64,000 nucleotides of DNA from the NCBI RefSeq assembly GCF_900221005.1, contig NZ_OBQI01000002.1, positions 310,001 through 374,000 of the forward strand, written 5' to 3'. The first letter of the stretch is position 1; each line of letters starts with the position of its first letter. The stretch comes from Blastococcus aggregatus. Lineage in GTDB: Bacteria > Actinomycetota > Actinomycetes > Mycobacteriales > Geodermatophilaceae. Both the position numbers and the translations under genes were made by a program. The notes below the pieces were generated by a model. It did no database searches, was not told the origin of the DNA, and was given only the letters and a program-made list of their open reading frames with translations. Positions 23,975 through 38,669 of the stretch are shown here, piece after piece.

Positions 23975-24757
23975 GTGACCACCGAGCGCGTGCCCGCGGA
24001 GTGCTGGCTGACCGACATGGACGGCGTCCTGGTCCACGAGGAGAAGGCGCTGCCCGGCGCGGCCGAGTTCCTGGAACGGCTCGTCGACCGCGGCCGCCGC
24101 TTCCTCGTCCTGACCAACAACTCGATCTTCACCCCGCGCGACCTCGCCGCCCGCCTGGCCCGCACCGGGCTGCACGTCCCGGAGGAGTCGCTCTGGACCT
24201 CCGCGCTGGCCACCGCGGACTTCCTGCACACCCAGCTCCCCGGCGGGTCCGCCTACGTCATCGGTGAGGCCGGCCTGACCACCGCCCTGCACGAGGTCGG
24301 CTACGTCATGACCGACACCGATCCCGACTACGTCGTCCTCGGCGAGACGCGCACGTACTCGTTCGAGGCGATCACGCGGGCGATCCGCCTCGTCGGCCGC
24401 GGGGCACGCTTCATCGCCACCAACCCGGACGTGACCGGACCCTCGCCGGAGGGCCCGCTGCCGGCCACCGGGTCGGTCGCGGCGATGATCACCCGCGCCA
24501 CCGGGGCCGAGCCCTACTTCGTCGGCAAGCCGAACCCGATGATGTTCCGCAGCGCGATGAACCGGATCGAGGCCCACTCGGAGTCCACGGTCATGGTGGG
24601 CGACCGCATGGACACCGACGTCGTCGCCGGCATCGAGGCCGGGCTGGACACGATCCTGGTGCTCTCGGGGTCCACCGCGGCCGCCGACGTCGCCCGGTTC
24701 CCGTTCCGTCCCGGCCGGATCCTCGACTCGATCGCCGACGTCATCGACCTGGTCTGA
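23975..24757 (+). CDS. HAD-superfamily phosphatase, subfamily IIA (NagD/PGP-like)
   Basis: 260 residues. The DxD nucleophile motif is in WLTDMDGVLV, motif II in LVLTNNS, the Lys in VGKPNPMMF and motif III in MVGDRMDTDVVAGIEAG. The class IIA cap lies between motifs II and III. These enzymes hydrolyse p-nitrophenyl phosphate, nucleotides or glycerol phosphate; the substrate is unknown. GTG at 23975 follows TAGCGT (23962-23967) by 7 nt, suggesting leaderless translation. Confidence 0.9.
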   Translation: MTTERVPAECWLTDMDGVLVHEEKALPGAAEFLERLVDRGRRFLVLTNNSIFTPRDLAARLARTGLHVPEESLWTSALATADFLHTQLPGGSAYVIGEAGLTTALHEVGYVMTDTDPDYVVLGETRTYSFEAITRAIRLVGRGARFIATNPDVTGPSPEGPLPATGSVAAMITRATGAEPYFVGKPNPMMFRSAMNRIEAHSESTVMVGDRMDTDVVAGIEAGLDTILVLSGSTAAADVARFPFRPGRILDSIADVIDLV

Positions 24758-25228
24758 TCAGCGGTCGAGGTAGGCCAGCCGGGCCTCGGGCGTCATGAGC
24801 AGGTAGAGCACCGCGGCGACCAGCGCCAGCACGGGGACGCCGATGTCCGGGCGGCCGGCCTGGAACGCCGCGACGATGCCCGAGGCGCCGAAGAAGACCT
24901 GCAGGGCGATCACCGGGCCGCGCGCCCAGCCCGCCAGCCGGCGCAGCCCGGCCGCCGCGGCGCCGAGGACGCCCGCGACGAGCCCGACGAGCACGACCTC
25001 GGCCAGCGCACGGGGCACGCTCTCCGGGTCGCCGGTGACGGTGAGCCACAGCAGCACGAGCGCCAGGACGACGAACCCGGCGGCCTCGACGGCGACCAGC
25101 GCGGCCGCCTGCCGCACGGATCGGGGCGCGACCGGGCGGGGTGCCTGCGGCCGGGCCGCGGGCGCGGGCGTGACCGCGCCGAAGAGTCGGTCGGCCAGCC
25201 GGCGCGGCTGCGGCGTCTGCTCGGTCAC
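24758..25228 (-). CDS. Hypothetical four-helix membrane protein
   Basis: 156 residues. A polar, Pro/Arg-rich N-terminus (1-50) is followed by four hydrophobic helices, with a short C-terminal TPEARLAYLDR tail. I recognise no family with a known role. The GTG start is 7 nt from TAATCT (25236-25241, minus strand), the clearest -10-like hexamer here. Convergent with the HAD gene, with no gap. Confidence 0.75.
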   Translation of the reverse strand: MTEQTPQPRRLADRLFGAVTPAPAARPQAPRPVAPRSVRQAAALVAVEAAGFVVLALVLLWLTVTGDPESVPRALAEVVLVGLVAGVLGAAAAGLRRLAGWARGPVIALQVFFGASGIVAAFQAGRPDIGVPVLALVAAVLYLLMTPEARLAYLDR

Positions 25229-25321
25229 GCCCGCGAGATTACGCGGCGCCGCCGGCCGGTCCGCCCCGTTGCCGGGTGCACCTCCCACGCCGGCCCGGGG
25301 TCCGCAGTTAGCCTGGAGTTC

Positions 25322-26281
25322 ATGCGCGCGCTCGTGGTGGTCAACCCGGCGGCGACGAGCACCACGGCCAAGATGCGCGACGTCCTCGTCGGCGCGCTCG
25401 CCAGCGAGCTCAAGGTCGACGTCGCCGAGACCACGCACCGCGGCCACGGCCGGCAGCTCGGCGCCCTCGCGGCGGCCGACGGCCTGGACCTCGTGGTCAC
25501 CCTCGGCGGTGACGGCACGGTGAACGAGGTGGTCGACGGCCTGCTCGAGAACGGGCCCGGCGGGCATCTGCCCACGCTGGCCGTCGTGCCGGGTGGCTCC
25601 ACGAACGTCTTCTCCCGCGCGCTGGGCCGGTCCCGGGACCCGGTGGAGGCCACCGCGGAGATCCTCGCCTCGGTGCGGGCCGGCCGGACCCGGACGGTCT
25701 CCCTGGGCACGGCCAGCGCCACCGGCACCGGCACCGAGGCCGGGTGGACGGCGCCCCGCTGGTTCGTCTTCGCGGCCGGGCTCGGGTTCGACGCCGAGGT
25801 GATCGCGCGGGTGGAGGCGCAGCGCGCCCGCGGACACCGGTCGACGGGGGCGTTGTACGTGCGGGAGGCGACCACGGCGTTCCTCCGGGGCCGGGAGCGG
25901 CGTCGCCCGGCGATGACCCTGCGGACTCCCGGTGAGGCCGCGGTCGAGGAGCTGTTCCTCTGCCTGGTGTCCAACGTCAGCCCGTGGACCTACCTGGGTG
26001 CGCGACCGGTGAACCCGTCCCCCGAGGCGTCGTTCGACACCGGCCTGGACGTCTTCGCGCTCGGTCGCACGGACCCTGTCGCGATGCTGCGCGTGCTGCG
26101 GCAGGCGCTCGCCGCCCAGCCGCGGCTCCGCGGCCGTGGGCTGTACCGCAGGCACGACCTGGCCGAGCTCGAGCTGACCGCCGACCGCCCTCAGGGATGG
26201 CAGGTCGACGGCGAGCACCTGGGCACGGCGACCGGCCTGCGCCTGCGGTCGGTGCCGTACGCGTTGCGCGTCGTCTCCTGA
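25322..26281 (+). CDS. Diacylglycerol kinase-like lipid kinase (DagK/LCB5 family)
   Basis: 319 residues. The N-terminus VVVNPAATS and the nucleotide-binding loop TLGGDGTVNEVVDG, then VPGGSTNVFSRALG, are the diagnostic motifs. The C-terminal beta-sandwich ends in WQVDGEHLG. Substrate may be diacylglycerol or another lipid. ATG at 25322 is 7 nt after TAGCCT (25309-25314); GGAG between them is too close to serve as a ribosome binding site, so the mRNA is probably leaderless. Confidence 0.9.
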   Translation: MRALVVVNPAATSTTAKMRDVLVGALASELKVDVAETTHRGHGRQLGALAAADGLDLVVTLGGDGTVNEVVDGLLENGPGGHLPTLAVVPGGSTNVFSRALGRSRDPVEATAEILASVRAGRTRTVSLGTASATGTGTEAGWTAPRWFVFAAGLGFDAEVIARVEAQRARGHRSTGALYVREATTAFLRGRERRRPAMTLRTPGEAAVEELFLCLVSNVSPWTYLGARPVNPSPEASFDTGLDVFALGRTDPVAMLRVLRQALAAQPRLRGRGLYRRHDLAELELTADRPQGWQVDGEHLGTATGLRLRSVPYALRVVS

Positions 26282-26353
26282 CCTCGCGTCGCAGGAAAGG
26301 CCGGCGAATGCAAGGCCCCTCGCCCTGCCGAGTGGCGGGCCTATCACGACCGT

Positions 26354-26369
26354 GGTGAGCTTGCTCACG
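26354..26369. promoter_or_regulatory. CRP-like operator upstream of whiB1
   Basis: GGTGAGCTTGCTCACG is a near-perfect palindrome matching the CRP pattern GTGA-N6-TCAC. In Mycobacterium tuberculosis the CRP protein Rv3676 binds similar sites upstream of whiB1, so the position fits known regulation. It lies about 225 nt before the whiB1 ATG and 36 nt before the TTGACA. Confidence 0.6.
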
Positions 26370-26396
26370 CGGGGGTCGGCGCTGGCCTGGTTTCGC

Positions 26397-26424
26397 TTGA
26401 CAGGCGCTCCCCGCGTGAAAGCAT
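26397..26424 (+). promoter_or_regulatory. Candidate whiB1 promoter
   Basis: TTGACA at 26397-26402 is a consensus -35, with AAGCAT at 26419-26424 as the best -10 candidate (16-nt spacing). The -10 is weak, so activation by a factor such as CRP would make sense. Confidence 0.35.
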
Positions 26425-26586
26425 CGCTGCAGGAACGCAACCTGCCGGTAACACACAGCAGGCAGTCGCTGCCGTCGAGGCGCTGGGAATCCCGGTGTCA
26501 TCCCGGCCGCGTCGGCCCGGCCGCAGGCCGGACCGGGTTCAGCGACTGACGTAGAAACCGTAGACGACACCGAGGAGAACACCGCC

Positions 26587-26838
26587 ATGGACTGGCGCCA
26601 CCGCGCGCTCTGCCGGGACGAGGATCCGGAGCTGTTCTTCCCGATCGGGACGGCCGGCCCCGCCGTCGTCCAGATCGAACAGGCCAAGGCCGTGTGCCAG
26701 CGCTGCCCCGTCGTCCAGTCGTGTCTGGACTGGGCGCTGAGCTCTGGCCAGGACTCCGGCGTCTGGGGCGGTCTCTCCGAGGACGAGCGGCGGGCCCTCA
26801 AGCGCCGCCAGGCTCGCACCCGGGTCCGCACCGCCTGA
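26587..26838 (+). CDS. whiB1: WhiB1-type [4Fe-4S] transcription factor
   Basis: 83 residues, nearly identical in layout to mycobacterial WhiB1: MDWRHRALCRDEDPELFFP, a CxxC...C cluster (Cys9, Cys37, Cys40, Cys46), the GVWGG turn and a basic tail. WhiB1 holds a nitric-oxide-sensitive [4Fe-4S] cluster and binds region 4 of the primary sigma factor; it is essential in mycobacteria. The ATG is preceded by CGAGGAGAA. The neighbouring pdtaS gene is convergent, as in M. tuberculosis (Rv3219/Rv3220c). Confidence 0.95.
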   Translation: MDWRHRALCRDEDPELFFPIGTAGPAVVQIEQAKAVCQRCPVVQSCLDWALSSGQDSGVWGGLSEDERRALKRRQARTRVRTA

Positions 26839-26882
26839 CCGCAGAGCACCATCCGGCCGCATCGCGGCCACACCGATCGCCT

Positions 26883-26916
26883 CGAGGCCGGTCCGGGATC
26901 TCCCGGACCGGCCTCG
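26883..26916. terminator. Bidirectional terminator between whiB1 and pdtaS
   Basis: CGAGGCCGGTCCGGGA and TCCCGGACCGGCCTCG form a 16-bp perfect inverted repeat with almost no loop. It sits between the convergent stops of whiB1 and pdtaS and can fold on either strand. There is no U-run, as usual in actinobacteria. Confidence 0.85.
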
Positions 26917-26930
26917 GCGCGTTCCCGGGA

Positions 26931-28418
26931 TCAGCGCCGCGGCAGCCCCGCTCCGGGCAGCGTCAGCACCACCTCGGTCCCCCGCCCGCCCGGCGGCACG
27001 CCCATGTGCAGGCTGCCGCCGAGCTCGCTCACGACGAGCGTCCGGACGATCTGCAGGCCGAGCCCCTCGCTGACCGACGGGTCGAACCCCACCGGCAACC
27101 CTCGGCCGTCGTCGCGCACCCGGACGAGCAGGTCGTCCCCCGTGCGCTCGGCGAGCAGCTCGATCACCCCCGGCTCGCCCTCGGGGAACGCGTGCTCGGC
27201 GGCGTTGTGCAGCAGTTCGGTGACCGCGAGCACCAGCGGTGTGGCCGTGGCCGCCGGCAGCTCGCCGAACGAGCCGGTGCGCCGGGTGCGGGCGGCCGGC
27301 CCCACCGAGGTGAGGTCGCCCAGCATCGGCAGCACCTGGTCGAGCACCTGGTCGACGTCGACGACGTCCTCCCGGCTGCCGGCCAGCGTCTCGTGCACCA
27401 CGGCGATGGAGGCCACCCGGCGCACCGACTCCTCCAGGGCGTCGCGCGCGGCGGGCACGGTCATGCGGCGGGCCTGCAGCCGCAGCAGCGCGGCGACGGT
27501 CTGCAGGTTGTTCTTCACCCGGTGGTGGATCTCGCGGATCGTCGCGTCCTTGCTCAGCAGGGCGCGGTCGCGGCGGCGGACGTCGGTCACGTCCCGGACC
27601 AGCACCAGCGCGCCCGCCTCGCCGCCGGGCGCCTGCAGGGGCAGGGCGCGGACGAGCATCGTGGCCGACGCCGCCTCGACGTCCATCGGGCCGGGGAAGC
27701 GCCCGGCGACGGCCGCCGCGATCCCGGCCGCGACCTCCTCCCCCGCCACCCGCTCCCGCGCCGCCGCCCGCGTCACCTCGCCCAGGTCGCGGCCGACGAC
27801 GTCGCCGGCGACGCCGATCCGCCGGTAGGCCGACAGCGCGTTCGGGCTGGCGTAGACCGCCCGTCCTCGGCCGTCCAGGCGCACCAGCCCGTCCCCGACC
27901 CGGGGGCTCATCTCCGCGTCCTGCAGCTTCTCCGGCGGGAAGGTGCCCGCGGAGACCATCAGGCAGAGGTCGGCGGCGATGTCGAGGTAGGTGTGCTCGA
28001 GGGTGGAGGGCGCGCGGGTCACCGCGAGGTTGGTGTCCCGGGCCAGCACGGCGACGACGACGCCGTCGTGGCGGACCGGGACGACCTCGCGGCGGCGGGG
28101 CGCGGGCCCCGACCAGTCGGGAGCACCCTCGGTGACCGGCCGGCCCTCGAGGTAGGCGACCTCGAAGGGATGGGCGTCCTCGCCGGCGACCTCCACCCCC
28201 ACCAGGTCCTCGGGGCGGCTGGTGGGCGCGGTGAGCGGCCGCACCTGGGCGACGCACCACCACGAGCCGCCCGGCTGCGGCAGCGGCACCCACAGCGTCA
28301 GGTCGGCGAAGGAGAGGTCGGCCAGCAGCTGCCAGTCGGCCACCAGCCGGCGGCAGTGGTCGATCTGCGCGGGACCGGAGGCAGTGCCACGGGTGAGGCG
28401 CTCGGAGAGGCTGTTCAT
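26931..28418 (-). CDS. pdtaS: Sensor histidine kinase PdtaS
   Basis: 495-residue cytosolic kinase. A GAF-like N-terminal domain (about 1-150) and a PAS domain (about 155-275) precede the HisKA_2 box REIHHRVKNNLQTVAALL and a HATPase_c domain with NAAEHAFP and the GLGLQIV G-box. Its partner in mycobacteria is the RNA-binding antiterminator PdtaR, not in this window. The order whiB1-pdtaS-biotin carrier matches Rv3219-Rv3221c. ATG at 28418 follows TACGCT (28429-28434, minus strand) by 10 nt. Confidence 0.92.
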   Translation of the reverse strand: MNSLSERLTRGTASGPAQIDHCRRLVADWQLLADLSFADLTLWVPLPQPGGSWWCVAQVRPLTAPTSRPEDLVGVEVAGEDAHPFEVAYLEGRPVTEGAPDWSGPAPRRREVVPVRHDGVVVAVLARDTNLAVTRAPSTLEHTYLDIAADLCLMVSAGTFPPEKLQDAEMSPRVGDGLVRLDGRGRAVYASPNALSAYRRIGVAGDVVGRDLGEVTRAAARERVAGEEVAAGIAAAVAGRFPGPMDVEAASATMLVRALPLQAPGGEAGALVLVRDVTDVRRRDRALLSKDATIREIHHRVKNNLQTVAALLRLQARRMTVPAARDALEESVRRVASIAVVHETLAGSREDVVDVDQVLDQVLPMLGDLTSVGPAARTRRTGSFGELPAATATPLVLAVTELLHNAAEHAFPEGEPGVIELLAERTGDDLLVRVRDDGRGLPVGFDPSVSEGLGLQIVRTLVVSELGGSLHMGVPPGGRGTEVVLTLPGAGLPRR

Positions 28419-28466
28419 GGTGCCGCCGAGCGTAGAGACCAGCGGCGGGCTCCTACGCTGCTCGGT

Positions 28467-28973
28467 GTGGTCGACGTCCCCGCCCCGCCCGCCGTCCGGA
28501 TCGAGCCCGCCACCCCGGCGGACCACGCCGACATCGCCGAGCTGACCGTCGCGGTCTACGTGGGGGGCGGCCTGGCCGGCCCCGACTACGGGGCGGAGCT
28601 CGCCGACGTGGCGCGCCGGGCGGAGCTGGCGGAGCTGCTCGTCGTCCGGGACGGGGACGGGCGCCTCGTCGGCAGCGTCGCCCTGGTCCTCGACGGCGAG
28701 TTCGGCGAGGTGACCGAGTCCGACGACGAGGCCGCGGTGCGCATGCTGGTCGTCGACCCGGCGGCCCAGGGGCAGGGCATCGGGGCGCTGCTGATGACGG
28801 AGTGCCTCCGGCGTGCGCGGGCTGCCGGCAAGCACCGCATGGTGCTGTCCACGAGCACGGTCATGACCGCGGCGCACCGGCTCTACGAGCGGCTGGGCTT
28901 CACCCGGCTGCCCGAGCGCGACTGGTCCCCGGTGCAGGGCGTCGACCTGCTGGTCTACGCGCTCGACCTCTGA
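28467..28973 (+). CDS. GNAT N-acetyltransferase
   Basis: 168 residues. The fold runs from VRIEPATPADHADIAELT through MLVVDPAAQGQGIGALLM, the acetyl-CoA pyrophosphate loop (QGQGIG), to RLYERLGFTRLPER. Substrate unknown. GTG at 28467 is 7 nt after TACGCT (28454-28459) without a Shine-Dalgarno. It is divergent from pdtaS and the two -10 hexamers are about 20 nt apart. Confidence 0.88.
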   Translation: MVDVPAPPAVRIEPATPADHADIAELTVAVYVGGGLAGPDYGAELADVARRAELAELLVVRDGDGRLVGSVALVLDGEFGEVTESDDEAAVRMLVVDPAAQGQGIGALLMTECLRRARAAGKHRMVLSTSTVMTAAHRLYERLGFTRLPERDWSPVQGVDLLVYALDL

Positions 28974-28974
28974 C

Positions 28975-29973
28975 TCACCGGTCCAGCCAGGCGAACCCGA
29001 AGCCCCCGCTGCCGCTCCCCGACCCGAACGGTCCTCGGTCGCTGCGCACGACGGAGCACGCCGCGTCGTCGACGGTCACCGCGCGGCGGGTGCCGGTGCG
29101 GTCCTCGACGACCGCGGTGCGGACGGGTGCGGGGCCGGCGACGCACTCGGCGACGCCGCCCGTGATCGCGTGCACGCCGATGCGGACCCGCTCGGCCTCC
29201 TCGCCGGTCAGCTGCCGGACCTCCGGCTCGCCGCCCGCGACTCCGGCCGGCCAGGTGCAGACGATCCCCCGCTCCGCGGTGAGCGGCATGACCATCGGCG
29301 AGCGCTCGCCCAGCAGGTAGCCGGTGTCGACCTCGGCCGACGGCCCGTCGACCGAGACGCTGTCGGGATCACCCGGGTCGTCCGGGCAGACGAGCGGTGC
29401 GCTGCTCGGGGCGTCCTCGAACGCATCGGCGTGCTGGCGACCGAATGCGGCCATGAGCAGCCCGTACACCCCGAGCCCGTCGGGCCCGCCGACCCCCTGG
29501 CCGTCGTACACGCCCAGCCCGTCGGGCCCGTCGATTCCCTGGCCGGCTCCGAACCACCCGGTGCAGTCGGGATCGGTGCGGCCGGTGATCGTCGCGACCG
29601 CGCCGTCGGCGTAGCCGATCTGGACCTCGTAGCTGCGGCCCCCCGCCAACGCCGCGCACGGCCAGCCCACGGGGGCGTCCTCGGCCTCCCGCTCCGCGAG
29701 ACCGGCGAGGAGATCCAGGTGCGTGGTCAGCGCATCGGAGGGCACCTCGGCGGGGATCGTGGCCCGTTCCGGTCCGGGGCAGAACCGGGCCCACACCGGC
29801 GTCCCGTCGACGCCGTCCCGCGTGGCGTCGGCCGCGTCGAGGCACTCCGCCGGGGCCTCGGCGGCCTCCTCGCGTTCCCCGTCCGAGGACGTGCACGCAG
29901 TCAGCGCCAGGACTGCGAGCGTCACGAGGACGCCTCCCGCCCGCCGGCGGCTCCCGGACCCCTCGATCGTCAC
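28975..29973 (-). CDS. Hypothetical lipoprotein
   Basis: 332 residues. The signal peptide ends in the lipobox LTACTSS (Cys near residue 27), so it is probably lipid-anchored outside the membrane. The exported part has eight or more cysteines and a tandem repeat GPDGLGVY in the middle (see findings). No enzymatic family is recognised. It is the third gene of a minus-strand run beginning with the degenerate biotin carboxylase, 76 nt after the biotin carrier. Confidence 0.8.
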   Translation of the reverse strand: MTIEGSGSRRRAGGVLVTLAVLALTACTSSDGEREEAAEAPAECLDAADATRDGVDGTPVWARFCPGPERATIPAEVPSDALTTHLDLLAGLAEREAEDAPVGWPCAALAGGRSYEVQIGYADGAVATITGRTDPDCTGWFGAGQGIDGPDGLGVYDGQGVGGPDGLGVYGLLMAAFGRQHADAFEDAPSSAPLVCPDDPGDPDSVSVDGPSAEVDTGYLLGERSPMVMPLTAERGIVCTWPAGVAGGEPEVRQLTGEEAERVRIGVHAITGGVAECVAGPAPVRTAVVEDRTGTRRAVTVDDAACSVVRSDRGPFGSGSGSGGFGFAWLDR

Positions 29974-30049
29974 GTCGCGCTCCCGTCAGTCGTCCGTCGA
30001 CAGGAAGACGCATCGAGCACGTCCCGGCGCTGCACCCGCCGGGGCACCG

Positions 30050-30274
30050 TCAGTCGAACGCGACGGTGGCGATGAGGTCGCCCTCCTGGAGGACCTCGCC
30101 CTCGACGACGTGCATCGCCTCGACGGTGCCGGCGAGCTCGGTGAGGACGGGGATCTCCATCTTCATCGACTCGAGGATGACCAGCGTGTCACCGGCAGCG
30201 ACCTGCGCGCCGGCGGTGACCAGCACCTTCCAGACGCTGGAGACCATCTCGGCGTGGATCTCCTCGACCGCCAC
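30050..30274 (-). CDS. Stand-alone biotin/lipoyl carrier protein (TB7.3-like)
   Basis: 74 residues forming one biotinyl domain. The biotinylation site ESMKMEIPV is canonical, with Lys near residue 38. It is the orthologue of mycobacterial TB7.3 (Rv3221c), an abundant small biotinylated protein of uncertain function. GTG is preceded by GAGGAGG. Unusually, it lies 68 nt downstream of a degenerate biotin carboxylase gene, which suggests the two proteins interact. Confidence 0.92.
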   Translation of the reverse strand: MAVEEIHAEMVSSVWKVLVTAGAQVAAGDTLVILESMKMEIPVLTELAGTVEAMHVVEGEVLQEGDLIATVAFD

Positions 30275-30342
30275 CGGGCCTCCTCTCGCGCGGGCCGCAC
30301 CGGGATCCCGGGGGCTGCGGTCATCCTGGCACGACGTGCGGC

Positions 30343-31392
30343 TCAGGTGCCCGGCACGGCCTCACCGGCGGCGAGCCGCCGCAGCACGGCGCGGACGTCG
30401 GACCCGTCGTGCGGCACCCCGAGCTCCGGCAGCCCTGACAGCACCTGGCTCGCGGCGCGGGCCGCGGTCGCGGTGTCGTCGGCGGCGGCGCTGACCGTGG
30501 CCAGCAGCGCGTCGTACCAGCCGTCCAGCCGGTCGCCCGGTTCGTAGCCGCCGACGGCCACGAGGTCCACCCCCGCCTCCGGGCGGGGCTCGGGACGTCC
30601 CGTTCCCGGCAGCCGTCCGGCGATCCGGCCCGCCTCCCCGGGAGGCAGCGTGGAGCGCAACTGCACCGCGACCGCGGACCGCCACGGCGACGACGCCGGA
30701 TCGCCGGCGTCGTTCCGGGCCGGGACCGCGCTGCGCAGGGCCAGCTCGACGGCGTCGACGCCGTGCGCCCGCTCGAGGACGGCGATGTCGAGGGAGAAGC
30801 CGGCGGCCACCTCGGCCAGCTCGCCGTCGGGCGAGATGCCGACCGTGACCAGCCCGCGCCAGCCGACCTCGGCCAGCCGGCCGGCCGCGGCCGGGACCGT
30901 CGCCCGCCCGTCCGGGGTCCAGGACACCCGGGCGATGCCTGCGGCCCGGTCGCGCGAGACCGGCGTCGGGAAGCGGAGTCCGTCGGCGGTCACCCAGGCG
31001 AGCAGACCGCGCTCGCTGGCCGGCTCCACGCCGTCGCCGCCCAGCCGCTCCAGGACGTCGGGGTCGGGGCCCACCCAGAGCAGGCCCGCTTCGCGCACCG
31101 CGGCGGCCAGCCGGGCGTTGCCCGCCAGCGCCGGCGGCACCGGCAGGACGGCGGTGACGCCGCTGCGCCGCGCGGCCTCGACGATGCGGTCGACGGCGAG
31201 GTAGGACTCGGTGGCGGGCGCGGGACCCAGCAGGACGGCCTCGTCGGCCAGCCGCACGTGCCGGGCCGAGCGCTCGGCCTCGGAGTGCACCGCGACGGCC
31301 TTCACGCCCAGGCGCGCGCACGAGGCGATGACCCCGCACGCGGCCGGCCCCCGGCCCGCGACGAGCACGCTCTCGATCCCCAGGTGTGCCAC
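30343..31392 (-). CDS. Degenerate biotin carboxylase-like protein
   Basis: 349 residues, about 100 fewer than AccC. The N-terminal preATP-grasp domain is clear (SVLVAGRGPAACGVIASCAR, then VAVHSEAERSARHVRLADEA and ESYLAVDRIVEAARRSG), and the C-terminal domain is recognisable near WYDALLATVSAAADDT. The ATP-grasp core is shrunken: the Gly-rich loop GGGGxGM, the ATP lysines and the RxQVEHxVTE catalytic strand are missing, replaced by AEVAAGFSLDIAVLERAHGV. It therefore cannot be a normal biotin carboxylase. It is encoded just before a stand-alone biotin carrier. GTG at 31392 has an AGGAGGAG ribosome binding site. Confidence 0.78.
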   Translation of the reverse strand: MAHLGIESVLVAGRGPAACGVIASCARLGVKAVAVHSEAERSARHVRLADEAVLLGPAPATESYLAVDRIVEAARRSGVTAVLPVPPALAGNARLAAAVREAGLLWVGPDPDVLERLGGDGVEPASERGLLAWVTADGLRFPTPVSRDRAAGIARVSWTPDGRATVPAAAGRLAEVGWRGLVTVGISPDGELAEVAAGFSLDIAVLERAHGVDAVELALRSAVPARNDAGDPASSPWRSAVAVQLRSTLPPGEAGRIAGRLPGTGRPEPRPEAGVDLVAVGGYEPGDRLDGWYDALLATVSAAADDTATAARAASQVLSGLPELGVPHDGSDVRAVLRRLAAGEAVPGT

Positions 31393-31446
31393 GGCTCCTC
31401 CTGCGTTCCCCCCGCCCGGCGCATGCGCACCGCCGCCCCGTGAGAG

Positions 31447-31475
31447 GCTGGAGCCGTCAGCTTGGCGGCTCCGGC
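31447..31475. repeat. Hairpin in the divergent region before bL37
   Basis: GCTGGAGCCG and CGGCTCCGGC (one G-U pair) form a 10-bp stem with a 9-nt loop, between the degenerate carboxylase and bL37 genes. It could act in the leader of the minus-strand operon; function unknown. Confidence 0.4.
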
Positions 31476-31560
31476 TACGCCGCGCACGATACGTGCGCCG
31501 TCGCGCCGGGCCACGAATCCCCGGGTCCCGCGGCCCACCGGCAGAGAGAGGAGGGCAGCG

Positions 31561-31635
31561 ATGTCCAAGCGTGGACGCAAGCGTCGCGCTCGCAAGAAGA
31601 GCGGCGCCAACCACGGCAAGCGCCCCAACGCTTGA
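31561..31635 (+). CDS. Ribosomal protein bL37 (24 aa)
   Basis: MSKRGRKRRARKKSGANHGK continuing RPNA: a 24-residue, extremely basic peptide. It matches the actinobacterial large-subunit protein bL37 seen in the Mycobacterium smegmatis ribosome structure. AGGAGGG lies 6 nt before the ATG, and a strong terminator follows about 30 nt after the stop. Easily missed by gene finders because of its length. Confidence 0.88.
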   Translation: MSKRGRKRRARKKSGANHGKRPNA

Positions 31636-31666
31636 GCTCGCGCTCTCGTCGAGAGCTGCGAACGCT

Positions 31667-31706
31667 CGAAGGCCCCGTTCCCGCTGCTGCGGGTACGGGG
31701 CCTTCG
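31667..31706 (+). terminator. Terminator after bL37
   Basis: CGAAGGCCCCGT pairs perfectly with ACGGGGCCTTCG (12 bp) and an inner CCCGC/GCGGG stem caps it. It is 31 nt after the bL37 stop and 44 nt before the rshA stop, so it may serve both convergent transcripts. Confidence 0.85.
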
Positions 31707-31750
31707 TCGTCGTCAGGAGGGCAGACATGGCCATTCCTGCCCGGGCGGTG

Positions 31751-32080
31751 CTAGTCGCCGGAGCGCTCCACGGTGATCCGCTCGACGGTGACCTGCGTGC
31801 CGTCCTCCTCGAAGGAGACGCTGGTCAGCTGCATCTTGATCCGCTCGCGGAGCGAGGGAGGCGGGACGTCGCCACCGCAGCGGCGGCGGACGAGGGCCTT
31901 GAACTCCTGTTCGATGCCGAACTCGCGCAGGCACGAGGAGCAGTCCTCGAGATGCTCGGCGATGACCGCGCGGCGGTCGTCGTGCGTCTCGTGGTCGAGG
32001 AACTCGAACACGTGCGTCAGCACGTCGTCGCAGGAGTTGATCTCGATCGGCTCGCCGGCCCGAGAGACGTCGTCGGCCAT
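31751..32080 (-). CDS. rshA: Zinc-binding anti-sigma factor RshA/RsrA
   Basis: 109-residue redox-sensitive anti-sigma factor for SigH. It carries the ZAS motif HLEDCSSC (His43, Cys47, Cys50) plus Cys17. Oxidation makes a disulphide, releases zinc and frees the sigma factor to induce thioredoxin and mycothiol genes. Its ATG shares one base with the sigH stop (TGATG), coupling translation, the usual arrangement for sigH-rshA. Confidence 0.95.
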   Translation of the reverse strand: MADDVSRAGEPIEINSCDDVLTHVFEFLDHETHDDRRAVIAEHLEDCSSCLREFGIEQEFKALVRRRCGGDVPPPSLRERIKMQLTSVSFEEDGTQVTVERITVERSGD

Positions 32081-32769
32081 CAGGAGCTCGCCTCCTCACC
32101 GGCTCCGGCACGGACGAATCCGCGCTCGCGGGCATAGTCGGCCAGCAGCTTCTGCAGCCCGCGGCGACCGCGGTGCAGCCGGGACATCACCGTGCCGATG
32201 GGCGTGCCCATGATCTCGGCGATCTCCTTGTAGGCGAACCCCTCGACGTCGGCCAGGTAGACGGCCAGCCGGAAGTCCTCCGGCAACTGCTGCAGGGCCT
32301 CCTTGATGTCGGAGTCCGGCAGGTGGTCCAGCGCCTCGATCTCGGCCGACCGCAGCCCGCTGGAGCTGTGCTCCTCGGCGGCGTACAGCTGCCAGTCCTG
32401 CACCTGGTCGGTGGGGTACTGCTGCGGCTGACGCTGCTTCTTGCGGTAGCTGTTGATGTAGGTGTTGGTCAGGATCCGGTACAGCCACGCCTTGAGGTTG
32501 GTGCCCTCGGCGAACTGGTGGAAGGCCGAGTAGGCCTTCACGAACGTCTCCTGGACCAGGTCCTCGGCGTCGGCCGGGTTGCGGGTCATCCGCAGGGCGG
32601 CCGGGTAGAGCTGGTCGAGGAACGGCAGGGCGTCGCGCTCGAAGCGGGCGTCCCGTTCGGCACGGGTCTCGGCGACCTCCGTGCGGCTGCCGCCCTCGCG
32701 CGCCTCGGGGACCTCCACCGGCGCGGCGGGGATCTGACCGGGCTCGTCGATCACGGGCTCCTCGGGCAC
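32080..32769 (-). CDS. sigH: ECF sigma factor SigH/SigR
   Basis: 229 residues. A Pro/Glu-rich N-terminal extension (about 1-40) precedes region 2 ([20 protein letters not shown]) and region 4 ([20 protein letters not shown], then [16 protein letters not shown]). It directs the response to disulphide and heat stress. GTG at 32769 has GAGAGGAC upstream; some homologues start at an internal site when unstressed. A SigH-type promoter lies about 130 nt upstream, so it is probably autoregulated. Confidence 0.94.
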
Positions 32770-32907
32770 CGACCGTCCTCTCTGGGCTCCCCGGACACGG
32801 GGCGCCACATCGGTCGATCCTAGCCGCGCCGCATCCGGGCGGCCTGGCGGCCGTCGGGGCGCGACCCGCGGGCGGACGTTGGAGACGGTGCTGCTCACGG
32901 CCGGTGC

Positions 32908-32935
32908 AACGCCGACCGACTGCGCCCCGATTCCC
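32908..32935 (-). promoter_or_regulatory. SigH-dependent autoregulatory promoter
   Basis: On the minus strand GGGAAT (32930-32935) and GTT (32908-32910, in GCGTTGC) are separated by 19 nt, matching the SigH/SigR consensus GGAAT-N18/19-GTT. It points at sigH, whose GTG is about 130 nt downstream. SigH autoregulation is established in mycobacteria and Streptomyces; the assignment here is by pattern. Confidence 0.65.
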
Positions 32936-32975
32936 GGCCACTGCCGGAAAGGTCGTGCCACCTAGGCTCCCGGCC

Positions 32976-33449
32976 GTGGCGTCCACCCCCGCGGTGCGGG
33001 CACTGGAGAAGGCTGCCGTGCCGCACACCCTCCACCCCTACGAGGTCGGGAACGTCGGCGAGGCGGGCTACGGCGAGGCGGCCGCCGCGGCGCTCGGAGC
33101 CGATCCCCGGCGACTGCTCAAGACGCTGGTGACCCGCGTCGACGGAGCGCTCACCGTCGCCGTCGTCCCGGTGAGCGGCAGCCTCGACCTCAAGGCACTG
33201 GCCGCGGCCGCCGGCGGCCGGAAGGCCGTCATGGCCGAGCCCGCCGATGCGGAGCGCGCCACCGGTTACGTGCGCGGCGGGATCAGCCCGCTCGGCCAGC
33301 GGAAGGCGCTCCCGACGGTCGTCGACGAGCGCGCGCTGGACTTCGCCACCGTCCTGGTGAGCGCCGGTCGGCGGGGGCTCCAGGTGGAGCTGCCGCCGGC
33401 CGACCTCGTCCGGCTGACCCGCGCCCGCACCGCCCCGATCGGCCACTGA
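32976..33449 (+). CDS. YbaK/EbsC-type aminoacyl-tRNA deacylase
   Basis: 157 residues of the YbaK family, which hydrolyse mischarged Cys-tRNA(Pro). The key Lys is in RLLKTLV, and the GGRKAVMAEPADAERATGYV and GGISPLGQRKALPTVVDE blocks are typical. GTG at 32976 is 7 nt from TAGGCT (32963-32968), so leaderless. It is divergent from sigH. Confidence 0.92.
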   Translation: MASTPAVRALEKAAVPHTLHPYEVGNVGEAGYGEAAAAALGADPRRLLKTLVTRVDGALTVAVVPVSGSLDLKALAAAAGGRKAVMAEPADAERATGYVRGGISPLGQRKALPTVVDERALDFATVLVSAGRRGLQVELPPADLVRLTRARTAPIGH

Positions 33450-33480
33450 CCTCGCGACCGACGGGGGCGACGCACGAGGG

Positions 33481-35016
33481 TCAGGGGCGGCCGTACGGCG
33501 TCAGCAGTTGGTCGACCGGGGCGTGGTCGTCGGTGAGGACGTCGGCGTCGCCGACGAGGTCGTCCAGGTCGGCGCCCGAGGCAACCCGCCAGGCCAGGTC
33601 GTGGTCGCTCATCGCGGCGGCGATCGCCTCGGTGTCCAGCGGCTGCTGCGAGGCGACCGCGATGACGTTGCCGCCGTCCTCCCCCGTGAGGACCGGCACC
33701 CGGGCCAGCAGGACCACGTGCTCGAACACCGCGCGCAGGGTGGCGAGCTCGGCGCGGACGAAGCCCAGCGGCGGGTGGTCGATCAGGTTCACCGCGTAGA
33801 CGCCCTCGTCGGCCAGCGCGCGGTCGACCAGCCGCAGCGCCTCCCGGGTGGTCAGCTGCCACGGCACGGACAGACCGCCGAAGGCGTCCCCGACCACCAG
33901 GTCGCGCTCCCCCTCCGGCTCGTCGGCCAGCCCGACCCGGCCGTCGGTCACCCGCACCTGCAGGTCCGCCGAGGTCTCCAGGCCCAGCTGCTCCCGGTCG
34001 ATCGCGACGACCCCCGGATCGACCTCGAGCACCAGGCTGCGCGTGCCGGGGCGGACCTCGGCCAGGTAGCGCGGCAGCGTCAGACCGCCGCCGCCGACGT
34101 GCAGCGCCGACACGGGCTCGCCGTCCGGGAACGAGGCGTCGGCGACCGCGGCGATGGCCCGCACGTACTCGAACTCCAGGTGGGTGGGGTCCTCGAGGTC
34201 GACGTAGGAGTGCCGGAGGGTGTCGAGGATCAGCACCCGGCCCGACTCCCGCTCGGGATCGGCCACCACCCGGGCGCAGTGGTAGGCCGTCTCCTCCTCG
34301 CACGGGGTGGGCGCGACCGCCGCGAGCAGCGCACCGGCCACCGCGAGGACGGCCAGGCCCACCGGCACCCGGCCGCCCCCCCGGCGCAGCCGCAGCCCGA
34401 GGACGAGGCCGGCGACGACCGTGACCGCGCCGGTGCCGACCAGGATCACGCTGCTCGGGAGGATCGCGATCAGCAGGAACCCGGTGACGAACGTGGCCGC
34501 GATCGCGCCGAGCGTGCCGATGCCGGACAGGCGGCCGACCACCGCGCCGGTCTCGTCGAGGTTCGACAGCTGCAGCTTCACCACCATCGGCGGGACGGCG
34601 GAGAGCAGCGCTGCAGGCACCACGATCGCGACCGCGGCCAGCAGGAGCACCGCGCCCGCGTCCGCTCCGTTCACCCACGAGCCGGTGAAGCGCACGAGCG
34701 GCAGGACGGCGATGACCAGTGCGCCGCCGGCCACCATCAGCGGGGCGATCAGCCGCCGCGGGTCGACGCGGTCGGCCATCGCACCACCGGTCCACGCCCC
34801 GAGCGCGATCGCGGCCAGGGCGAAGCCGATGACGGCGGTGCTCGTCTGCAGTGTCACGCCGACGTAGGGCGCGATGAGCCGCAGCCCCACGATCTCCATC
34901 ACGAGGACGGCGCCGGAGCTCAGGAAGGTGACGGATGCGGCCACCCACGCGGGCAGCGGGCCCCCCGCCGGGGACCCCGTGGCGGCCGGTCCGGTGGTCG
35001 TCTCGACTCGGGACAC
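33481..35016 (-). CDS. Fused membrane/spermidine synthase-like protein
   Basis: 511 residues. Six to eight transmembrane helices (about 25-240) are fused to a cytoplasmic methyltransferase-fold domain (about 270-500) resembling spermidine synthase: LHVGGGGLTLPRYL, LVLEVDPGVVAID, VVGDAFGGLSVPW. The GGGGL box replaces the usual GGGDG, so polyamine synthesis is doubtful; such fusions have unknown substrates. It starts 1 nt after the SRAP stop, so they form an operon. Confidence 0.85.
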   Translation of the reverse strand: MSRVETTTGPAATGSPAGGPLPAWVAASVTFLSSGAVLVMEIVGLRLIAPYVGVTLQTSTAVIGFALAAIALGAWTGGAMADRVDPRRLIAPLMVAGGALVIAVLPLVRFTGSWVNGADAGAVLLLAAVAIVVPAALLSAVPPMVVKLQLSNLDETGAVVGRLSGIGTLGAIAATFVTGFLLIAILPSSVILVGTGAVTVVAGLVLGLRLRRGGGRVPVGLAVLAVAGALLAAVAPTPCEEETAYHCARVVADPERESGRVLILDTLRHSYVDLEDPTHLEFEYVRAIAAVADASFPDGEPVSALHVGGGGLTLPRYLAEVRPGTRSLVLEVDPGVVAIDREQLGLETSADLQVRVTDGRVGLADEPEGERDLVVGDAFGGLSVPWQLTTREALRLVDRALADEGVYAVNLIDHPPLGFVRAELATLRAVFEHVVLLARVPVLTGEDGGNVIAVASQQPLDTEAIAAAMSDHDLAWRVASGADLDDLVGDADVLTDDHAPVDQLLTPYGRP

Positions 35017-35017
35017 G

Positions 35018-35764
35018 TCAGAAGAGCGCCGGCTGGTCGGCCGGCTCCGCCACCGTCTCGGCCCGCTCGGTCAGCGCGCGCCCGTTGTTCGCGACGTTGT
35101 TCACCGCGGTGCTCACCGGACGCAGCTCGAGGCCCTCGACCACCTCGGGCGGCGTGGGCTCCACCAGCTGCTCGAGATCCTCCCGGGCGGGGTCGAGCCA
35201 GTCCGCCCAGCGGTCACGCGGCAGGACCAACGGCATCCGGTCGTGGATCTCGTGCAGCGCCCCGACGGCGGGCGAGGTGACGACCGTGCAGGTGTAGAGC
35301 CGGTCCTCGCCCCGGCCCCACACCTCCCACAACCCGGCCAGCGCCAGCACCGAACCGTCCTGCGGGGTGATGAAGTACGGCTGCTTGCCGGGGCGGTCCA
35401 GCCGCTTGGCCCATTCGTACCAACCGTCGGCCGGCACCAGGCAGCGCCGCGTGCGGGCCGCCGTCCGGAAGGCAGGTTTGTCGGTCAGCGACTCCACCCG
35501 GGCGTTGATCATGCGGTTGCCGATCGACACGTCCTTGGCCCAGGACGGGACCAGGCCCCAGCGCACCGCGCGCAACTCGCGGTGGCCGCCGCCGGTGAGC
35601 GCTCCCTCGGCGTCGCGCTCCTTCTTCCAGCGGACGACGTGCACGTCCTTGGTGGGCGCGACGTTGTAGTCCGCGGGCACGGGCGGCTGCCCGCCGGCGG
35701 GCACCGCCTCGAACTCCAGCGCCAGGTCCTCGGGCTTGCGACTGGCGGCGTAGCGACCGCACAC
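35018..35764 (-). CDS. SOS response-associated peptidase (SRAP/HMCES family)
   Basis: 248 residues. The invariant Cys2 of MCGRY, Asn in YNVAPT, Glu in DGWYEWAK and His in HDRMPLVL are all present. SRAP proteins form a DNA-protein crosslink with abasic sites in single-stranded DNA. A GTG start is preceded by GAGGAG, and TAGAGT (35801-35806, minus strand) could be its -10. Mycobacterial Rv3226c occupies the equivalent place beside aroA. Confidence 0.95.
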   Translation of the reverse strand: MCGRYAASRKPEDLALEFEAVPAGGQPPVPADYNVAPTKDVHVVRWKKERDAEGALTGGGHRELRAVRWGLVPSWAKDVSIGNRMINARVESLTDKPAFRTAARTRRCLVPADGWYEWAKRLDRPGKQPYFITPQDGSVLALAGLWEVWGRGEDRLYTCTVVTSPAVGALHEIHDRMPLVLPRDRWADWLDPAREDLEQLVEPTPPEVVEGLELRPVSTAVNNVANNGRALTERAETVAEPADQPALF

Positions 35765-35900
35765 GGGCGTCTCCTCGAACCGGATCTGCTGACCTCCCGC
35801 ACTCTAGGTCCGTCCCCTGACACCGCGCCCGACCGTGACAGCGGGCGGCGTTTGGGGTACCCCTCTGGTCGAACAGCCGACGAGAGACGAGGATCACCGC

Positions 35901-37346
35901 GTGACCGTGACGCAGAACGCCCCCGCAACCACCAGCGCCTCCCGGCGCTACGCGACCGTCAACCCCTTCACCGGCGAGACGGAGAAGGAGTTCCCCTTCA
36001 CCGAGACGTCGGAGATCGACGGCATCATCGGCAAGGCGCACAGCGCCTACCAGGAGTGGCGTGACCGCTCCGTCGAGGAGCGCGCCGCCGTCGTCCAGAA
36101 GGCCGCCGAGCTGCTCGACGAGCGGATCATGGACTTCGCCGCCCTCATCACCAAGGAGATGGGCAAGCGCCGCGACGAGGCCGTCGGCGAGCTGTTCCTC
36201 TGCTCGATGATCCTGAAGTACTACGCCGGCAACGGCCCGAAGTTCCTCGAGCCGACCTCGATCGAGCCGATGATGGGCGGCGGAGAGGCCGTCATCGAGA
36301 CGCGCCCCGTCGGCGTGCTGCTGGCCATCGAGCCGTGGAACTTCCCCTTCTACCAGGTCGTCCGCGTGGCCGGCCCGAACCTGGTGCTGGGCAACACCGT
36401 CATCCTCAAGCACTCGGAGATCACCCCGCAGTGCGCCGTGGCGATCGAGCAGCTCTTCCGTGACGCCGGCGCCCCCGAGGGCGCACTGATCAACACCTTC
36501 CTCAAGATCGAGGACGTCGAGCAGGTCATCGCCGACCCCCGCATCCAGGGCGTGACGCTGACCGGCAGCGAGCGGGCCGGCTCCTCGGTCGCCGCGCTGG
36601 CGGGCAAGCACCTCAAGAAGTCGGTGCTGGAGCTCGGCGGCAGCGACCCGTTCATCGTCCTCGACGGTGAGAACCTGGAGGCGACCGTCAAGGCGGCCAC
36701 CGCCGGGCGCATGGGCAACACCGGGCAGGCCTGCACCGCCTCCAAGCGGCTGATCGTCACCGAAGACGCCTACGAGCCCTTCGTCGAAGGCCTCAAGCAG
36801 GCATTCGGCATCTTCGCCCCCGGCGACCCCGCTGACCCGGCGACGTCGCTCGCGCCGCTGTCCAGCGAGAAGGCTGCCCAGGACCTGCAGGCGCAGATCC
36901 AGGACGCCATCGACAAGGGCGCCACCGTCGTCGCGGGCGGCCAGCGCCCCGAGCACGCGGGCGCGTTCGTGTCGGCCACGATCCTCACCGACGTCACCCC
37001 CGACATGCGGGCCTACCGCGAGGAGCTCTTCGGCCCCGCGGCCGTCGTCTACAAGGTGAAGGACGCCGCCGAGGCGGTCGCCCTGGCCAACGACAGCGAC
37101 TTCGGCCTCGGCGCCACCGTCATGGGCAGCAACCCCGAGCAGGCGCGGTCGGTGGCCGAGCAGCTCGAGGCGGGCATGGTCTGGATCAACCAGCCGACCG
37201 GCTCCTCCCCCGAGCTGCCCTTCGGTGGCATCAAGCGGTCCGGCTACGGCCGCGAGCTCTCCGAGCTGGCCATGTTCGAGTTCGCCAACCGGCGTCTGCT
37301 GCGCACGGTGCCGGTCAAGAAGACGGACAAGCCGCAGGCCGGCTGA
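35901..37346 (+). CDS. NAD(P)-dependent aldehyde / succinate-semialdehyde dehydrogenase
   Basis: 481 residues. NAD-binding region EPWNFPFYQV, catalytic Glu in LELGGSDPF, catalytic Cys in NTGQACTASKR and the FGGIKRSGYGRE C-terminal motif are canonical. The sequence is closest to the GabD-type succinate-semialdehyde group by eye, which with Kgd could form the alternative route from 2-oxoglutarate to succinate. GTG at 35901 has GAGACGAGGA upstream. Confidence 0.9.
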   Translation: MTVTQNAPATTSASRRYATVNPFTGETEKEFPFTETSEIDGIIGKAHSAYQEWRDRSVEERAAVVQKAAELLDERIMDFAALITKEMGKRRDEAVGELFLCSMILKYYAGNGPKFLEPTSIEPMMGGGEAVIETRPVGVLLAIEPWNFPFYQVVRVAGPNLVLGNTVILKHSEITPQCAVAIEQLFRDAGAPEGALINTFLKIEDVEQVIADPRIQGVTLTGSERAGSSVAALAGKHLKKSVLELGGSDPFIVLDGENLEATVKAATAGRMGNTGQACTASKRLIVTEDAYEPFVEGLKQAFGIFAPGDPADPATSLAPLSSEKAAQDLQAQIQDAIDKGATVVAGGQRPEHAGAFVSATILTDVTPDMRAYREELFGPAAVVYKVKDAAEAVALANDSDFGLGATVMGSNPEQARSVAEQLEAGMVWINQPTGSSPELPFGGIKRSGYGRELSELAMFEFANRRLLRTVPVKKTDKPQAG

Positions 37347-37388
37347 GCACGTGCACGGAGGTGCGGCGCGGGCGGGCAGACTGATCAC

Positions 37389-38669
37389 GTGAGTGATGTC
37401 TGGTCCGCGCCGCACCACCCGGCGCCCGTCGACGCCGTCGTCCCCCTGCCCGGGTCCAAGTCGCTGACCGCCCGGGCCCTGGTGCTCGCCGCGCTCGCCG
37501 ACGGGCCCAGCCGTCTGGTGCACCCCCTGAGGGCGCGCGACACCGACCTCATGGCCGGCGCGCTGCGCGCCCTCGGGGTGGGCATCGAAGACGACGGCGA
37601 CGACTGGCTGGTCACCCCGGCCCCGATGCGGGGTCCGGCCACGGTGGACGCCGGGCTGGCCGGCACCGTCCTGCGGTTCTTCCCTCCGGTGGCCGCGCTC
37701 GCCGACGGCCCGGTCACCGTCGACGGCGACCCCCGCCTGCACGACCGCCCCAACGCCGGCCTGCTCGACGGGCTGCGTGGGCTCGGCGTCCGGATCGACG
37801 ACGCCGGCCGCGGCCGAGCGCCGTTCACCGTGCACGGCACCGGCCGGGTGCGCGGGGGTGCGGTGGAGGTCGACGCCAGCGAGTCCTCGCAGATGGTGTC
37901 CGGCCTGCTGCTGGCCGCCGCCCGCTTCGACGAGGGCATCGACCTGACGCTGGCGGGCGCGCTGCCGTCGCTGCCGCACGTGGACATGACGGTGGCGACC
38001 CTGCGCGAGCACGGCGTGGAGGTGGCCGCCACGGACCGCGGCTGGCGGGTGGCCCCCGGGCCGATCGCCGCGCTCGACCGCGTCCTCGAACCCGATCTCT
38101 CCAACGCCGCTCCCTTCCTGGCCGCGGCCCTGGTGTGCGGCGGGCGGGTGACCGTGCCCGACTGGCCCGCGGTCACCACGCAGCCCGGCGCCCAGCTCGA
38201 CCGGCTGCTGACGCTGATGGGAGCCGAGGCCGAGCGGACCCCCGAGGGCCTGCGGGTCACCGGCACCGGCTCGATCCGGCCCCTCGTCGCCGATCTCGGC
38301 GAGGTCAGCGAGCTGGTGCCGGTACTGGCCGCGCTCGCCGCCCTCGCGGACGGCCCCTCTCGGTTCACCGGTGTCGCCCACATGCGCGGGCACGAGACCG
38401 ACCGGCTCCAGGCCCTCGACGAGGTGCTCACCGCCGTCGGGGCGACCGTGCGCCAGCTGCCCGACGGGCTGGAGATCGAACCCGGCCCGCGGCGACCCGC
38501 CCGCCTGGACTCCTACGCCGACCACCGCATGGTCATGGCCGCCGCCGTGCTGGGCCTCGCGATCGACGGCGTCGAGGTCGCCGACCCGGGAGCGGTGACC
38601 AAGACGCTGCCCGACTTCCGCGAGCGGTGGGCGCGGCTGCTCGGCGACGCGGTCGGAGCGCACCGCTGA
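37389..38669 (+). CDS. aroA: 3-phosphoshikimate 1-carboxyvinyltransferase (EPSP synthase)
   Basis: 426 residues; sixth step of the shikimate pathway. PLPGSKSLTARALVLAALAD binds both substrates, GLAGTVLRF forms the PEP loop, DASESSQMVSG and EVSELVP carry catalytic residues, and MRGHETDR and YADHRMVM complete the site. The -10-like CAGACT (37377-37382) is 6 nt before the GTG. It precedes rsgA, as in mycobacteria (Rv3227-Rv3228). Confidence 0.95.
   Translation: MSDVWSAPHHPAPVDAVVPLPGSKSLTARALVLAALADGPSRLVHPLRARDTDLMAGALRALGVGIEDDGDDWLVTPAPMRGPATVDAGLAGTVLRFFPPVAALADGPVTVDGDPRLHDRPNAGLLDGLRGLGVRIDDAGRGRAPFTVHGTGRVRGGAVEVDASESSQMVSGLLLAAARFDEGIDLTLAGALPSLPHVDMTVATLREHGVEVAATDRGWRVAPGPIAALDRVLEPDLSNAAPFLAAALVCGGRVTVPDWPAVTTQPGAQLDRLLTLMGAEAERTPEGLRVTGTGSIRPLVADLGEVSELVPVLAALAALADGPSRFTGVAHMRGHETDRLQALDEVLTAVGATVRQLPDGLEIEPGPRRPARLDSYADHRMVMAAAVLGLAIDGVEVADPGAVTKTLPDFRERWARLLGDAVGAHR

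Follow-up and report, generated by a model that had tools for sequence, protein, structure and literature searches.

What becomes of a biotin carboxylase (BC) that has lost its catalytic core, and why is it kept beside a free biotin carrier? This question is raised by a 64,000-nucleotide stretch of the Blastococcus aggregatus genome (contig NZ_OBQI01000002.1, positions 310,001 to 374,000; hereafter the window, from whose first letter all coordinates are counted). Here, a gene for a 349-residue BC homologue, which we call pseudo-BC (30343..31392, minus strand; GTG start with GGAGGAG in front), precedes a gene for a TB7.3-like stand-alone biotin carrier of 74 residues (30050..30274, minus strand), which begins 68 nt past the end of the pseudo-BC gene. 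We propose, with a probability of roughly one half, that a stand-alone BC turned into a pseudoenzyme at this very locus and that the product, pseudo-BC, is retained as a non-catalytic partner of the biotin carrier.

A lidless carboxylase homologue and its carrier

The N-terminal BC domain of pseudo-BC (residues 6-119; 31036..31377, minus strand) was recognised by PF00289 with an E value of 2.5e-28 and is the best conserved part of the protein, with 41 of 114 columns invariant across the 81 loci compared below. It is followed by a shrunken central part without the lid (residues 120-225; 30718..31035, minus strand), delimited by alignment and folded into strands and helices in the structural model, and by a remnant of the BC C-terminal domain (residues 239-340; 30373..30678, minus strand), recovered from a sub-threshold PF02785 match, the alignment and a structure match, in which GDRLDGWYDALLATV aligns with GDTVTPFYDPLLAKL of intact BC. 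The family profile search found no match to ATP-grasp families in pseudo-BC. In alignments, the BC loop GGGGxGM and K116 have no counterpart, K159 stands opposite T (four family members aligned), and R292, Q294, E296 and R338 face G, S, D and Q. The segment GFSLDIAVLE of the central part stands opposite RLQVEHPVTE, and the family motifs of this part include LERLGGDGVE and GWRGLVTVG. Compared with about 448-450 residues in intact BC, the 349 residues of pseudo-BC form, in a confident AlphaFold model, a compact BC fold minus the lid, which spans 330 residues, shows a clear N-domain match and follows the E. coli BC structure up to its residue 437; the top Foldseek match was 5mlk_B (E 5.1e-25). 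A PHROGs search made in the same analysis gave no match. With the lid missing and almost every catalytic residue lost, pseudo-BC is not expected to carboxylate biotin by the known mechanism, and judged by its sequence it is a pseudoenzyme, namely a BC homologue whose catalytic residues are lost and whose gene is kept by selection. The initial annotation had called it a catalytically dead BC homologue without the GGGGxGM and RxQVEH elements, and this description holds.

The carrier scored 108.4 bits against NF004547 (cut-off 75) and contains the biotinylation motif ESMKMEIPV (30146..30172, minus strand, from the translation), with the target Lys38 at 30161-30163. The score above the curated cut-off and the lysine in ESMKM assign this predicted protein to the TB7.3-like class, and LESMKMEIP was present in 79 of 79 family carriers, in agreement with the earlier identification of a TB7.3-like carrier with an intact motif 68 nt away.

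A sample of 249 genomes from across the order contained 39 genomes of Geodermatophilaceae, from eight genera, and pseudo-BC was found in all of them. The match was nearly full-length in 38 of these (E <= 2.6e-125) and limited to residues 4-223, with a short open frame, in the remaining one (G233); outside the family, the strongest match among those listed was 2e-32, and mostly the N-domain was covered. The locus comparison comprised the window and the best 80 of 131 relatives (Blastococcus, Geodermatophilus, Modestobacter, Klenkia, Goekera, Trujillonella and records with less exact names, one of the 80 carrying a Bacillus title marked unverified). Residues 6-335 were open in all 81 loci, with at least 320 of these 330 residues covered, and the aligned codons contained no stop ahead of residue 348; some copies stop a few residues short of the C-terminus found in the window. 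Across the 81 sequences, 94 of 322 domain columns were invariant. The median ratio of nonsynonymous to synonymous substitution rates (dN/dS; NG86, with dS partly saturated at high G+C) was 0.31 for pseudo-BC (0.21, 0.25 and 0.35 for its N-terminal, middle and C-terminal parts), 0.14 for the carrier, 0.30 for RsrA, 0.24 for PdtaS and 0.07 for SigH. These open frames and dN/dS values indicate that the gene is kept, and it is maintained under looser constraint than the carrier. The carrier stood beside pseudo-BC in 79 of the 81 loci; one of the other two stops at a contig end (L061), and the second (L050) is taken up below. The supposition that the dead BC and a carrier without a BC of its own co-occur, in conserved adjacency, was therefore upheld.

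Intact carboxylases in the same slot

In other families, an intact BC occupies the slot of pseudo-BC (L115 and L116 of family f9, L117 of f3, L121 of f7), and in L121 (4001-5680, genome G006) the BC and a TB7.3-like carrier are fused in one 560-codon open frame. The N-domains of such stand-alone intact BCs were up to 61% identical to pseudo-BC among the matches listed. A class-wide search with the L115 BC, in which up to four candidates per genome were scored, revealed clear orthologues in at least 51 of 394 genomes (52 matches, E <= 1e-169), a count that omits G369, whose orthologue is cut off by the end of a contig (5e-150); the next matches among those listed were at 1e-152 and weaker. In 47 of the 51 genomes (48 matches), a TB7.3-like carrier followed the intact BC in the same orientation at a distance of no more than 5.5 kb, the gap being shorter than 150 nt in 28 of the 48. 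The exceptions were G256 (contig end), two f16 genomes (G015 and G028) and G587, which had no carrier among the matches listed. Of 70 genomes with a match in the order sample, 32 were checked for adjacency and 6 showed it; G122, whose BC adjoins a divergent carrier of its own, is not among these 6.

Seventeen loci with intact BC plus carrier were read with wide flanks (L115-L117, L121, L161-L166 and L169-L175), and SigH and RsrA were encoded upstream on the same strand in 14 of them. The other three (L161, L164 and L174) had no SigH-RsrA within the fetched stretch; L161 and L164 have PdtaS downstream, and all three have GNAT downstream. Seven of the 17 loci (L161-L164, L170, L171 and L175) have an enoyl-CoA-hydratase gene that separates BC from carrier. 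Carboxyltransferases have the crotonase fold, and the product of this gene might be a partner candidate. In L202, an enoyl-CoA-hydratase family gene likewise lies between a degenerate BC and the carrier.

The presence of intact BCs in the same slot elsewhere implies that pseudo-BC is a former BC changed in place. We consider that it probably arose there from a stand-alone BC subunit and was then retained by selection; in the tree, the stem branch of the Geodermatophilaceae pseudo-BCs is long. The initial annotation had held that intact homologues at the locus would make this a decayed gene. Intact BCs do occur there in other families, but the conclusion of decay fails on the open frames in 81 of 81 loci, the dN/dS of about 0.31 (0.21 in the N-domain) and the confident fold.

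Three further lidless or degenerate BCs were found outside Geodermatophilaceae (L120 and L196, both of f12, and L202 of f10). A tree that included an own-genome BC as outgroup, with several intact BCs left out of the alignment, united all three with Geodermatophilaceae (97/97), the long branches being a warning. Approximately unbiased (AU) tests gave p = 0.033 for f10 with L202, p = 0.089 for Geodermatophilaceae plus f12 without L202, and p = 0.003 for Geodermatophilaceae plus the intact f9 BC. The L202 gene order, bL37-BC-enoyl-CoA hydratase-M24-carrier, is the arrangement also seen at L175, where a BC of the same family is intact. Thus, tree and gene order, as read from these sequences, appear to disagree on one versus repeated origin of lidless BCs. 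In f10, 5 of 24 genomes matched L202 at E <= 1e-20, full-length in G009 itself only, and f12 consists of two genomes only.

Role of the pair and competing explanations

The stand-alone BC also occurs away from the carrier, in f16, tentatively Pseudonocardiaceae, and in a few more families. We read 23 such or related BC loci (10-17 kb each, gene labels taken from L167), and HMG-CoA lyase was present in 18 and a close carboxyltransferase in 17 (one more at 27%); a biotin motif was not seen in 22 of the 23, and L122 alone has a carrier of its own. In L167, L168, L254-L265 and L271-L273, BC, HMG-CoA lyase and carboxyltransferase occur together with no biotin carrier motif in 11.7-17 kb. Two genomes with lyase and carboxyltransferase, G015 (L206) and G020 (L199), have the carrier located behind sigH-rsrA. 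A BC without a carrier domain requires a free carrier, so the TB7.3-like protein is the obvious candidate. Because HMG-CoA lyase acts after 3-methylcrotonyl-CoA carboxylase (MCC) in leucine breakdown, a split enzyme of the MCC type is proposed, and the gene order suggests that the orphan carrier was its third subunit.

The genome of the window itself encodes four other BCs with GGGG and RLQVEH motifs, each with an adjoining carboxyltransferase and an MKM-type biotin domain close behind, which shares the open frame of the BC in three cases and lies in another frame for the BC of contig C11. There (C11:195000-197000, L277), the separate frames represent either a pair of genes or a single gene with a broken frame. 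Counting the TB7.3-like carrier, the genome has five MKM-type domains, and all except this carrier come with such a BC. The acyl-CoA dehydrogenase of one of the four BC clusters and its counterpart in the f16 BC cluster are 74% identical (L275), and hence the BC of that cluster may have taken over. Carboxyltransferase genes without a BC in the surrounding 17 kb were also seen at C7:454859-456124 and C4:636148-637563, and their products are possible partners of the orphan carrier.

Taken together, we envisage that the old pair would have supplied a split methylcrotonyl-CoA-type carboxylase with its BC subunit and its carrier subunit, the carboxyltransferase being encoded elsewhere. In Geodermatophilaceae, other BCs with their own carrier domains would have replaced the old BC, which would then have been free to lose its lid while its body remained next to the carrier. 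The protein changed strongly at the base of the family and has been held by selection since. Continued binding to the biotinylated carrier may be the reason that the body was kept, and pseudo-BC could then act as a scaffold, docking or holding subunit through which the carrier works with, or is kept from, another carboxylase. This binding, its partner and its effect are all what we infer to be most likely; the holder, sensor or delivery role first suggested from the sequence is possible. More tentatively, and with distinctly less confidence, pseudo-BC might dock the free biotinyl carrier and control which carboxylase is served, as a mirror image of the plant protein BADC, with the TB7.3-like carrier as the missing third subunit of the actinobacterial split methylcrotonyl-type carboxylase.

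Several observations weigh against the reading as a retained carrier partner. The mirror-tree partial r of pseudo-BC was 0.28 with the carrier, 0.56 with SigH and 0.38 with PdtaS, an unspecific signal. R16 and R19, which we take to be dimer residues of E. coli BC, align with positions that are not preserved throughout the Geodermatophilaceae pseudo-BCs. In L050 (Geodermatophilus sp. TF02-6, 1600-1730), pseudo-BC is open and the carrier is gone, about 100 nt separating the pseudo-BC match from the GNAT match with no N in the locus, and no close carrier was found elsewhere in this genome (G176; best E 4e-9 among the matches listed). Four of the 23 BC loci (three of f4, one of f15) have neither lyase nor carboxyltransferase. 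HMG-CoA lyase was not found in the six own-genome regions searched, which makes it a weak step that other BCs with their own carrier domains took over the job of the old BC. Finally, among 20 carrier loci picked for having no adjacent intact BC, 18 showed no BC remnant on the fetched stretch if a 26% match that overlaps sigH in L211 is set aside; such loci indicate that the carrier can do without a BC.

The alternatives were weighed on the same evidence. Pseudo-BC could regulate other acyl-CoA carboxylases by pairing with an AccA-type BC domain, the carrier being optional. BC domains dimerise via their N- and C-terminal domains, precisely the parts that pseudo-BC retains; four BCs with catalytic motifs are at hand in the genome, and one lineage keeps pseudo-BC without the carrier. 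We nevertheless regard such regulation as unlikely, given that the R16/R19 dimer residues are not kept throughout and that gene order links pseudo-BC to the carrier and to none of the four BCs.

Less probable is a relic, a BC made redundant by other BCs and now slowly eroding, its frame held open by high G+C and weak residual constraint. Intact copies at the same locus elsewhere, the occurrence of the other degenerate copies as single examples of differing extent (L120, L196 and L202) and the many BC-less carrier loci in the set read all fit erosion. It is weakened by the open frames and purifying selection described above, with 94 of 322 invariant domain columns and a confident compact fold.

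It is also improbable that pseudo-BC has become a novel binder of a small molecule or protein and has no relation to the carrier, the former active-site cleft being reshaped for another ligand: the conserved family motifs VLPVPPALAGN, LERLGGDGVE, GWRGLVTVG and GVPHDG, which replace the catalytic ones, and the long stem branch would suit such a role, but the gene order with the carrier is conserved and there is no independent hint of a ligand. In propionibacterial transcarboxylase, a carrier shuttles carboxyl groups between carboxyltransferases; a comparable BC-free pair, with pseudo-BC as a structural mount, would agree with carriers that persist where the locus BC is dead or absent and with the two carboxyltransferases lacking a nearby BC (C7:454859 and C4:636148), but no carboxyltransferase is encoded at the locus, and we rate this reading the least probable.

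Neighbouring genes and relation to known systems

Upstream of pseudo-BC lie a divergent gene for the 24-residue 50S ribosomal protein bL37 (31561..31635, plus strand; NF047428, 52.3 bits, cut-off 30), an RsrA-type anti-sigma factor gene (31751..32080, minus strand; TIGR03988, 88.1 bits) and a SigH-type sigma factor gene (32080..32700, start approximate, minus strand; TIGR02947, 361.4 bits). Downstream landmarks are genes for a GNAT acetyltransferase (28500..28973, start approximate, plus strand; PF00583), a PdtaS-type histidine kinase (26931..28400, start approximate, minus strand; PF12282 GAF_PdtaS) and a WhiB-family regulator (26587..26838, plus strand; PF02467), named WhiB1 in the initial annotation. 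Between carrier and GNAT, a hypothetical 332-residue protein with a lipoprotein-like start (28975-29973, minus strand) gave no hit to either Pfam or NCBIfam at E <= 1 and was matched in 4 of the 81 family loci, partly by short matches.

The stress link once read into this neighbourhood was not sustained. It rests on gene order alone, bL37 lies on the opposite strand between rsrA and pseudo-BC, and the BC/carrier loci L161, L164 and L174 lack sigH in the fetched stretch. The SigH-type motif GGAAY-N15-19-GTT matched once in 24000-38000, at 32934 on the minus strand. We rejected SigH stress regulation of pseudo-BC, as this lone nearby motif precedes sigH and not pseudo-BC; moreover, six matches in the whole 64 kb make the scan no evidence for SigH control. 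No sigma-70-type promoter was matched in window positions 28900-32100. In the divergent bL37/pseudo-BC region (31393-31560), TCTCACG was invariant in 12 aligned loci and is possibly part of a promoter or operator.

Compared with AccC of the E. coli type (PDB 3rv3, 3g8c and 4hr7; about 450 residues), the 349-residue pseudo-BC has no lid and nearly all of its catalytic residues are replaced. The stand-alone BCs of other actinobacteria (L115, L117, L149 and others) share its slot, whereas lid and catalytic motifs are present in their aligned rows. AccA3-type subunits, which join BC and biotin carboxyl carrier protein (PDB 5mlk and 9yx1), have the same BC fold but differ in possessing the lid, the catalytic residues and their own carrier domain; three such fused genes are present in the genome of the window. 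TB7.3 (Rv3221c) of Mycobacterium tuberculosis belongs to the same carrier family, NF004547, and is named a putative carrier subunit in passages of PMC3048393. The order sigH-rsrA-carrier-pdtaS-whiB was verified for a genome of f8 (L201) and not for M. tuberculosis, and the carrier of L201 has no adjoining BC or pseudo-BC.

Pseudo-BC appears to be a new pseudoenzyme of the known BC family with a plausible role; no description of a BC pseudoenzyme was found in the literature searched, which lay largely outside subscription journals. A carboxylase subunit that has lost catalysis and is kept in every sampled family member offers a clean enzyme-to-partner case, and its intact relatives in the same chromosomal slot allow direct comparison. 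It also brings a testable function for the TB7.3-like carrier, as the free carrier for stand-alone BCs that lie beside HMG-CoA lyase and carboxyltransferase and lack a carrier domain.

The closest parallel in architecture may be the plant protein BADC. This carrier homologue lacks the motif for biotinylation and can either promote or dampen acetyl-CoA carboxylase; passages of PMC11926652 present it as an inhibitor and, from later studies, as assembly glue. BADC is likewise a carboxylase-subunit homologue that lost a catalytic feature and was retained as a partner. In BADC the dead part is the carrier, whereas here the carrier motif is kept and the carboxylase is dead; without claiming sequence kinship, pseudo-BC could by analogy be viewed as a BADC-like regulatory subunit in mirror image.
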